DNA of 24,157 bases from a virus: the IMG/VR virus record IMGVR_UViG_3300047480_000612, positions 1 to 24,157 of that record. One strand, written 5' to 3'. This document shows positions 368 to 18,075 of the stretch, in pieces (the first letter of the stretch is position 1; each line of letters starts with the position of its first letter). Both the position numbers and the translations under genes were made by a program. Under the pieces are notes generated by a model that was not told the DNA's origin, did not search any database, and saw only the letters and a program-made list of their open reading frames with translations.

Positions 368-820
368 TTATTTTGTATAGGTGATTTGGATCTTTTTGGG
401 CTTATTTTCTTCCGGAACGATCTGCTCCAGTGCAATAGCCAAAATACCGTTCTGCACTGTGGCTGCTCGAACTTCAACATTGTCAGCCAATGTAAAGTTA
501 CGCTCAAAACCTCTGGTACTAATGCCCTTGTGAACATATTCAGTTTCACTGTCTTGTTCTTTTTTGGCTTTGGTGCCTTTAACAATCAAACTGTTTTCCT
601 TTAGTTCAACATCGATTTCGTCCTCGCCAAAACCAGCCACTGCGATTTCGATAACATAATGTGTGTCATCAAGTTTGGCAATGTTGTAGGGAGGATAGTT
701 GTCGTTGCTGCGACTGTTGGCAAATGTCCTATTCATTTCGTCGAACAATCTATTAAAACCAATCGCGTGACGAGCAAAAGTAGGAATGTCAAGGGTACGG
801 ATTTCAAAAGTGTTTGTCAT
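368..820 (-). CDS. hsp20: IbpA-like small heat-shock protein (Hsp20)
   Basis: A 150-aa alpha-crystallin-domain chaperone. The N-terminal AIGFNRLFDEM, then YPPYNI, the IAVAGF strand, the RGFERNF segment and the NGILAIALE stretch near the C-terminus follow proteobacterial IbpA/IbpB closely, and the length is normal. Small heat-shock proteins hold unfolding proteins in a refoldable state without ATP; here that could protect phage or host proteins during infection (inference). The start is fixed by AAAGGAG seven bases upstream. The gene has its own perfect sigma70 promoter, a structured leader with a ROSE-like motif over the ribosome-binding site, and its own terminator, so it is a stand-alone, individually regulated unit, unlike its tightly coupled neighbours. 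Confidence 0.95.
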   Translation of the reverse strand: MTNTFEIRTLDIPTFARHAIGFNRLFDEMNRTFANSRSNDNYPPYNIAKLDDTHYVIEIAVAGFGEDEIDVELKENSLIVKGTKAKKEQDSETEYVHKGISTRGFERNFTLADNVEVRAATVQNGILAIALEQIVPEENKPKKIQITYTK

Positions 821-827
821 AGTTTTT

Positions 828-875
828 CTCCTTTATAAGCAAGTATGACTTGTAGACCCCAATCGGGCATCTACA
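828..875 (-). promoter_or_regulatory. Candidate ROSE-like RNA thermometer in hsp20 leader
   Basis: The hsp20 leader (about 58 nt) contains a stem-loop at 851-875 (TGTAGA/TCTACA with an inner CCC/GGG). A second short hairpin brings UUGCU (838-842) opposite the Shine-Dalgarno AGGAG (828-832) across a 5-nt loop. ROSE thermometers of ibp/hsp20 mRNAs carry U(U/C)GCU facing the SD with a G-G mismatch, and the pairing here (U-G, U-A, G-G, C-G, U-A) has that pattern. A competing hairpin, CAAGU/ACUUG at 840-852, uses part of the same bases. The structure was judged by eye, not folded by program. Confidence 0.55.
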
Positions 876-884
876 CAAGTATTT

Positions 885-913
885 ATTATAGTTATTTCTT
901 TATTCACTGTCAA
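885..913 (-). promoter_or_regulatory. Consensus sigma70 promoter of hsp20
   Basis: On the minus strand TTGACA (908-913), a 17-base spacer and TATAAT (885-890) match the bacterial housekeeping consensus perfectly. The -35 box lies in the end of the upstream gene. The expected transcript start is near position 878. No heat-shock sigma32-type boxes were recognised, which fits control at translation rather than transcription. Confidence 0.85.
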
Positions 914-16848: not shown

Positions 16849-18075
16849 TCAATGAAACTGATCTGATTCTGTGCTTGACTTGTTGGCAACTGTGCTGGTA
16901 GCACCGACTGCTTCACTGATCAAATCAAAATAACTGACACCAACTTCACGCTGATGTCGAACTGTGGTAAAGCCGCGCTCTTGAGCTGCAAATTCACGCT
17001 GTTGCATTTCACTGTAGCCAGCCATACCTCTATCTTTGTATGCTTCTGCCAATTCAAAGGTAGCTAAGTTAACACTGTGGAAACCAGCCAGTGTAATGAA
17101 TTGGAATTTGTAGCCCAGTTCACCTAGTTCACGCTGAAAAGTTTCACACTCATCCGCACTTAAAAACTTACGCCAATTAAAACTAGGACTGCAATTGTAG
17201 GCAAGCATCTGATCAGGATATACAGCGTGTATGGCATCGGCAAACTTTCTAGCCTGTGCAATGCTAGGCGTCGAAGTTTCAAACCAAAGGAGATCACTGT
17301 AAGGGGCAAAAGCAAGACCTCTGCTAATACAAGCATCAATACCATTTTTAAATTTGTAAAAACCTTCTTCAGTACGCTCATTAATGATAAAATCCTTGTC
17401 TAATGGATCATGGTCACTGGTAATTAAAGTTGCAGCCTCTGCATCAGTACGGGCCATAATCACTGTGTCTACTCCTGCTACATCAGCAGCCAATCGTGCG
17501 GCATTTAGTGTGCGAATCATTTGACTTGTTGGTACTAGTACTTTACCGCCCAAGTGACCACATTTCTTTTCACTTGCTAATTGGTCTTCAAAGTGTACAC
17601 CTGCGGCACCTGCTTCAATCATGGCCATCATTAGCTCGTAGGCGTTTAACGCACCACCAAAGCCTGCTTCAGCATCAGCAACAATAGGCAAGAAGTAGTC
17701 TATGGGTAACTTAAATTCAGTTTTATCGTAAATCTCACTCCACTCAATTTGATCAGCACGGCGGAACGCATTGTTTATACCCTTAACAACATTTGGTACA
17801 CTGTTAACTGGATATAGACTTTGATCTGGATATGTTTGTAGTGCTGTGTTGTTTGCAGCAGCTACTTGCCAGCCGCTCAAGTAAATTGCCTTAAGACCTG
17901 CCTTGGCATGTTGTACAGCCATCTGTCCATTGTATGCTCCAAGTGTATTGACATAAGGCTCTTTGGCCAGCAGTTCACGCAGTTTTGCAGCTCCACGCTT
18001 GGCCAGTGTGTGTTCAACTTGAACACTGCCTTGTAATCGGTTAACTGTTTCCACAGTATAGTTTCGTTTTTTCAT
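16849..18075 (-). CDS. aceA: Isocitrate lyase
   Basis: A 408-aa protein clearly related to bacterial isocitrate lyase. The signature [14 protein letters not shown] holds catalytic Cys172, [16 protein letters not shown] (126-141) gives Mg-binding acids, and [11 protein letters not shown] (291-301) closes the site. It splits isocitrate into glyoxylate and succinate, the first step of the glyoxylate shunt. Compared with the 434-aa E. coli enzyme it lacks about the first 25 residues but keeps the C-terminal lid. Active-site residues are intact, so activity is expected. It overlaps the 63-aa gene (ATGA) with GGAG five bases upstream, in the nrdA operon. No malate synthase was seen in the window. 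Confidence 0.95.

Follow-up and report, generated by a model that had tools for sequence, protein, structure and literature searches.

A ROSE-type translational leader precedes a viral hsp20 gene and is common to a set of phage chaperone genes

The leader of the hsp20 gene in virus record IMGVR_UViG_3300047480_000612, whose entire 24,157 bases constitute the window analyzed here, is supported by our results as a ROSE-type translational leader of a kind that is common to a phage chaperone set. The best explanation as a whole, to which we assign a probability of roughly 0.72, is that such a leader gates hsp20 and the phage chaperone set through the opening of its second hairpin. According to PMC4166951, ROSE elements invariably accompany small heat-shock genes of bacteria; thermometers from phages are few in the literature and represent other types (PMC11182007). 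A search of the open-licence PMC literature returned no ROSE element on a phage, nor any on dnaK or a phasin-like gene; as far as that literature goes, the ROSE-type leader is new in phages and its spread to dnaK, groES and phasin-like genes has not been described before.

An earlier note, made from the letters of this DNA alone, had proposed a ROSE-like RNA thermometer at this site, and the elements that it listed (promoter boxes, a longer upstream hairpin, TTGCT and AGGAG) are all present on the minus strand at the coordinates of Table 1. The leader (878-821) lies immediately 5' of hsp20 and, as in ROSE elements generally, which consist of two to four hairpins and stand directly before a small heat-shock gene, it carries the Shine-Dalgarno sequence (SD) in its last hairpin; the four U opposite the SD that define the fourU class were not found, the anti-SD of the window being CUUGCUU. 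Genes for bS21, ClpS, ribonucleotide reductase and an isocitrate lyase-like protein make up the surroundings of hsp20 in the record (Pfam, PHROG). Hsp20 itself was found in 507 of the 50,697 phage records searched, mostly those of cyanophages.

Table 1. Coordinates of the hsp20 locus and its leader in the window
Feature	Position	Strand	Content and basis
hsp20	368..820	-	150-aa small heat-shock protein; PF00011, E 4.3e-21; PHROG 432
ATG of hsp20	820-818	-	direct reading
ROSE-type leader	816..878	-	from presumed transcript start (~878) to hsp20 codon 2; ROSE_3 and R1 matches
Hairpin I	851..875	-	TGTAGATGCCCGATTGGGGTCTACA; stem with U.G wobble, bulged G, CCC/GGG and GAUU loop; covaries strongly in relatives
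Anti-SD CUUGCUU (ROSE motif UUGCU, bulged G)	837..843	-	conserved in 126 aligned leaders; bulged-G register
TTGCT	842-838	-	direct reading
Shine-Dalgarno AAAGGAGA, 3' side of hairpin II	827..834	-	direct reading, conservation, register; AGGAG at 832-828
GUCAUA, 5' side of start-codon lock	844..849	-	complementary to UAUGAC; fold
UAUGAC, 3' side of lock (spans the AUG and the start of codon 2)	816..821	-	fold, direct reading
-10 box TATAAT	885..890	-	overlaps TATAATAAATA (880-890), which resembles the late-type box TATAAATA
-35 box TTGACA	908..913	-	direct reading; 17-nt spacer to -10

The identity of the leader rests in the first place on covariance models. At a permissive threshold the Rfam model ROSE_3 (RF02523) spans all of its 69 positions at 876-815 with 32.2 bits, with E-values of 4.4e-5 when all Rfam was searched against 301 bases and 8.2e-7 when ROSE_3 alone was run on the whole record, in which the hsp20 leader is its sole match. 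At the gathering threshold, which is 43 bits for ROSE_3, the same search gave zero matches, the top phage score being 35.2, and since the curated cut-off is not reached we do not file the leader as a member of RF02523; the comparison with the ROSE models that the earlier note had recommended yields an end-to-end alignment but a score below the family limit. A second model, R1, built from 17 hsp20-leader relatives with the window left out, scores the leader at 48.8 bits (E 1.3e-9, 877-812). A further model, R2, was trained nearly wholly on uncultured contigs, with Melnitz in its alignment, and its training set contains the window, so that for the window only ROSE_3 and R1 count as evidence. The folding energy of the leader is low for its composition (z -2.8, with 2 of 200 shuffles equally good). 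The short motif from which the proposal had started is a poor guide, given that TTGCT-N0-14-AGGAG occurs in 49 of 100 shuffled windows; being at chance level it was not used as evidence, and the UUGCU/AGGAG pairing, weightless alone, gains its meaning from sitting inside a complete two-hairpin leader recognized by ROSE_3 and R1.

An Hsp20 protein search of viral contigs returned 80 loci, and every one of the 62 close hsp20 relatives whose upstream sequence is long enough keeps the architecture, their leaders comprising hairpin I, a linker usually containing GUCA, the anti-SD CUUGCUU or UUUGCUU, AGGAG and AUGAC. R1 matches 33 of 33 scanned contigs holding fetched hsp20 genes, weakly in the distant ones. 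Hairpin I varies in length among relatives around a constant core of a U.G wobble, a bulged G and CC/GG, which is conserved beyond the needs of pairing. Covariation was counted on a set of 126 aligned leaders (125 distinct), and on a covariance-model alignment, as mixed MAFFT alignments misaligned the long and short hairpin forms. Two-sided changes are seen at all ten hairpin I pairs; over the whole structure they number 322 versus 82 in shuffles, 97.3% of cells being paired versus 80.6%, and the covariation score is 0.411 versus 0.141 (sd 0.006) in shuffles and 0.03-0.07 once the partners are slid, these slide and shuffle controls offsetting part of the bias of a covariance-model alignment toward its own structure. 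The longer upstream hairpin proposed at 851-875 is thus present and supported by covariation in relatives, and one of the outcomes named beforehand as counting against the ROSE proposal, a lack of covariation in related phages, was looked for and the opposite was found in hairpin I.

Hairpin II has little room for covariation, the SD and start codon being nearly invariant; the SD helix can scarcely covary because the SD is fixed. In the 125 distinct leaders the best SD pairing leaves the G of UUGCU bulged (C-G, U-A, U-G, [G], C-G, U-A), with failure in only 2 of 619 cells over the five core pairs, and single changes in the helix agree with this pairing (C-G to U-G or U-A, U-G to C-G). The G-G mismatch that the earlier note had drawn by hand is inferior and was rejected: it places G.G in every leader, its middle pair never forms and 5 further cells fail. 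In the window, 838-842 pairs imperfectly with 828-832 in the classical ROSE register, with U(U/C)GCU opposite the SD and a bulged G. Variants of the anti-SD occur as well, namely CUUACUU with a bulged A in place of G, on dnaK, groES and hsp20 genes (L126, L127, L155, L172, L180, L241, L338, L339, L340), and CUUCGUUU, the form found before hsp20 in L054 and also in L195-L199.

A further element, missed by the earlier note, is the predicted pairing of GUCAUA (849-844) with UAUGAC (821-816), which would bury the AUG of the window. In 79 of 126 hsp20 leaders the linker carries four bases complementary to those that follow the A of AUG; by comparison, GUCA is found in 2 of 126 reversed linkers and, among other gene classes, in 2 of 79 linkers. 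Covariation in this lock is scarce because AUGAC is nearly fixed; three leaders with AUGAA starts (L072, L073, L303) carry UUCA in place of GUCA. The start-codon lock is a feature of a subclass, absent from dnaK and groES leaders.

The perfect sigma70 promoter that had been read upstream is correct for the window but atypical of the family: among 126 hsp20 leaders of related phages, only 3 follow a perfect TTGACA/TATAAT pair and 17 a looser one. More common is a TATAAATA-like (T4-late-like) box just 5' of the leader, present at 69 of 126 hsp20, 20 of 41 dnaK and 8 of 18 groES genes against 9 of 298 control genes, which hints that late-type transcription may start at hairpin I. No sigma32 promoter such as that of the Pseudomonas short ROSE was found at the window, where TTGACA-17-TATAAT overlaps the late-like box instead; phage leaders have sigma70- or late-type promoters.

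The element extends beyond hsp20. ROSE_3 and R1 also match elsewhere in the same contigs, before dnaK, groES(-groEL) and genes for phasin-like proteins of 72-92 aa, and once protein searches had been added, nearly all R1 matches proved to lie at the starts of these genes and of hsp20, on the coding strand. R1 gave 207 matches scoring 15 bits or more, and automatic classification assigned 181 of them (83 to hsp20, 48 to dnaK, 33 to groES, 17 to phasin-like genes); most of the remaining 26 appear to reflect overlapping or mis-picked ATGs (three being confirmed as hsp20) or a short ORF before groES, and two (L127 on the minus strand, L305) precede something else. When the motif was counted as UYGCU..AGGA plus the hairpin I core upstream of SD-bearing ORFs, it was present at 126 of 167 hsp20, 41 of 71 dnaK, 18 of 58 groES and 20 of 22 phasin-like genes, and at none of 303 other SD-bearing ORFs or 56 groEL genes. 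The contrast of the four classes with the others (205/318 versus 0/303, Fisher p ~1e-81) is one with their neighbors, the loci having been gathered mainly via these proteins, and the bias is addressed by whole-contig scans, in which R2 gave 47 matches on 26 whole virus contigs (E up to 0.1), 44 of them before the four gene classes. By these counts the element is restricted to chaperone-type genes. The T4-type major capsid protein Gp23 scored above cut-off in 22 of 53 contigs tested, and several of these 22 carry the element on two or three genes: on hsp20, groES and a phasin-like gene in the 342-kb contig G066, and on both hsp20 and dnaK in G049, G039, G046 and G053. Where this hallmark is absent, some contigs could be bacterial pieces assigned to viruses in error. 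The statement that ROSE elements occur on small heat-shock genes only (PMC4166951) holds at the window and fails for the phage family, with its dnaK, groES and phasin-like genes; it is an observed habit of the ROSE family and not a structural criterion.

The same architecture can be read in well-known phages. We inspected the hsp20 leaders of 20 cultured phages with complete genomes, S-CREM1 being a 21st; they include Syn1, syn9, S-RIM2, S-CAM1, S-SSM5, P-SSM2, Melnitz, HTVC008M, HTVC115P, Phosso (Sinorhizobium) and Ettore (Pseudomonas). Nearly all 20 show a hairpin, often with a UGCC-UUCG-GGG core, followed by UCGCU or UUGCU and then the SD, the deviants being Ettore (UUGCG) and ACG-2014j and S-H9-1 (AAGGAC as SD). 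The hsp20 leader is the best R2 match in 19 of the 20 genomes, and the twentieth reached 21.6 bits in a local search. S-CREM1, whose published Rfam annotation is without ROSE (PMC9964418), has its hsp20 leader matched by R2 at 30.1 bits; the leader in these cyanophages seems to have gone unnoticed until now. As a bacterial positive control, R2 run on 10 kb of E. coli matched only ibpA (22.5 bits) and ibpB (19.5 bits). Together with the Rfam model, the covariation of hairpin I and UYGCU opposite the SD, this recognition of bacterial genes by a phage-built model bears out the ROSE-like identity first suggested for the window. An R2 match at psbD of syn9 (L330, 223-270; 25.4 bits) has no clear two-hairpin form by eye, is probably due to chance and was left uncounted. 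In P-HM1 (L324, 140) the annotated GTG start of hsp20 falls at the leader hairpin, so that the element lies 3' of it; translation of hsp20 probably begins further downstream. A single scan for cellular homologues in species genomes gave 3 poor matches.

The mechanism we propose may be stated as follows. Hairpin I would form a stable, conserved structure at the 5' end of the hsp20 mRNA; in hairpin II the SD would be hidden behind CUUGCUU by a weak pairing with a bulged G, the start codon of the window phage being additionally concealed by GUCAUA/UAUGAC. Ribosome binding would be blocked in a cold, unstressed cell, and warming, or the loss of a protein that holds the structure, would open hairpin II and allow Hsp20 to be made. 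With the same leader on dnaK, groES(-groEL) and phasin-like genes, one RNA device would switch the chaperone set after its transcription, which would often proceed from late-type promoters. In the Pseudomonas short ROSE it is hairpin II that melts, beside a hairpin I that remains closed (PMC3669281), and by analogy the phage leader should hide its SD in the cold and free it in the warm; thermometer action, heat as the trigger, feedback by Hsp20 and a benefit to the phage are inferred. Energy modeling speaks to part of this. With hairpin II taken alone, predicted SD accessibility at 5 C is 0.20 versus 0.47 when the anti-SD side is shuffled (p ~1e-30) and climbs gradually to 0.44 at 50 C, which supports, within the model, occlusion of the SD by hairpin II. 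For whole leaders, the modeled change in SD accessibility from 20 to 42 C is 0.065 versus 0.058 in other phage genes (p 0.34), and their thermal folding against shuffles gave no difference in temperature response worth claiming; the window leader is predicted to go from 0.41 at 5 C to 0.47 at 42 C, with its AUG paired up to 50 C. Bulges and non-standard pairs are handled badly by the nearest-neighbor energy model, and its failure on a truncated leader of E. coli ibpA as well makes it a poor judge.

That weak thermal change in the model is what one would expect of a conserved leader blind to temperature, in which hairpin I serves as a stabilizer, as its 5'-end position would suit, and hairpin II merely sets a low translation rate. 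Such a general leader would not be expected to be restricted to chaperone-type genes, nor to carry the bulged-G ROSE motif that is common to E. coli ibpA and ibpB, and we consider this account unlikely. The most serious competitor is a switch operated by protein, in which phage Hsp20 or host IbpA represses the leader until aggregates titrate Hsp20 away, so that the leader would sense the proteotoxic stress of infection rather than temperature, although the two may act jointly. E. coli IbpA requires R93 for repression of its own 5' UTR (PMC10474464), and arginine occupies the equivalent position in 162 of 164 Hsp20 proteins from phages and in 11 of 12 named cultured ones, the window Hsp20 retaining it within STRGFERNF; the Y34 position is aromatic in 164 of 164 and the R97 position is R or K in 152 of 164. 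A hairpin I core kept beyond pairing needs also fits a protein ligand, and the presence of the element on dnaK and groES means that Hsp20 could control the set in trans. On the other hand, phages mostly carry T, E or S at the K98 position, where E. coli needs a positive charge, R93 may have been kept by ancestry alone, and binding of Hsp20 to the leader is putative. Aggregate sensing is therefore a plausible and serious alternative or addition to temperature sensing, with a probability that we place somewhat short of even.

Far less probable is an operator for the phage translation repressor RegA, an idea to which the position of regA lends some color, adjoining hsp20 (just upstream in several cyanophages) as it does in S-CAM1, S-RIM32, S-H9-1, ACG-2014j, ACG-2014f, P-HM1 and S-SCSM2R; the element is however essentially limited to hsp20 in cultured phages and occurs on E. 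coli genes too, and the window gene at 900-1187, upstream of hsp20, matched no Pfam or PHROG family. As for a chance resemblance within an AT-rich leader, the bare UUGCU/AGGAG motif is indeed expected at random, but covariation, gene specificity and the results of independent models all contradict this explanation, and we regard it as ruled out for practical purposes. 

Set beside known systems, the phage leader most resembles the short ROSE of Pseudomonas ibpA (PMC3669281) and ROSE_3, with which it shares two hairpins, a stable hairpin I (its GAUGCC...GGGUC core being that of ROSE_3), a hairpin II in which U(U/C)GCU faces the SD, and a leader some 60 nt long ahead of a small heat-shock gene. 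It differs in being phage-borne and below the Rfam cut-off, in a start codon that is unpaired in Pseudomonas but predicted to be paired in the window and in many relatives, and in its presence, among related phages, on dnaK, groES and phasin-like genes. A comparable UCGCU/AGGAG sensor hairpin exists in the ibpA and ibpB leaders of E. coli, both matched by R2; these are bacterial genes, and the ibpA leader is described as longer, with three to four hairpins (PMC3669281). In Synechocystis the hsp17 thermometer (PMC4477652), also located ahead of a small heat-shock gene, encloses both the start codon and the ribosome-binding site; it is a single hairpin that lacks hairpin I, and the cyanophage leaders examined here are ROSE-type instead. 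Phage-encoded RNA thermometers are represented by lambda cIII, SPbeta blyA and the Caudoviricetes fourU before a sigma70 gene (PMC11182007, PMC4166951); these belong to other structural classes and genes, none being ROSE-type and none driving a chaperone.

These findings place the same device on phage genes, in four gene families and in culturable model phages (Syn1, syn9, P-SSM2, S-SSM5, Melnitz), and the leader yields testable predictions on the timing of phage Hsp20 production; if it is gated by heat, lake and ocean warming would directly affect phage gene expression. We tentatively suggest, as something rather doubtful at present, that T4-type phages (Kyanoviridae and several jumbo lineages) possess a post-transcriptional heat-shock regulon of their own, comprising hsp20, dnaK, groESL and phasin-like genes, in which one ROSE-type leader would integrate temperature and free Hsp20; were this so, a single phage protein could feedback-control the whole set during infection.

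Several minor observations concern the genes around these leaders. The phasin-like family (72-92 aa, MFTLDATIDxxQTGKKxFVNTFV...) is found in large phages behind the same leader as the chaperones (L085, L086, L094, L100, L275-L289, L332, L336, L337); its resemblance to Phasin_2 is weak and below cut-off (E 0.01-0.06), and a phasin identity was therefore not adopted in its name. One group of groESL operons has, behind the ROSE-type leader, a short ORF (7-14 codons) that ends upstream of groES, the latter having an SD of its own (L195-L199, with MSKxxxxT, and L201-L204, L206, L211, L214; at about 2000-2140), possibly a leader peptide or a decayed arrangement. Two phage-like contigs that also hold ribonucleotide reductase genes have a compact clpS-hsp20-groEL-groES-dnaK or dnaK-hsp20-clpS cluster (L109, 5936-10682; L112, 7346-10117). 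In the window a ClpS-like adaptor and ribosomal protein bS21 flank hsp20 closely, one on each side (2-316 and 1187-1444), and an isocitrate lyase-family protein (16849-18075; PF00463, E 7e-105), an unusual phage cargo, lies between two ribonucleotide reductase genes.
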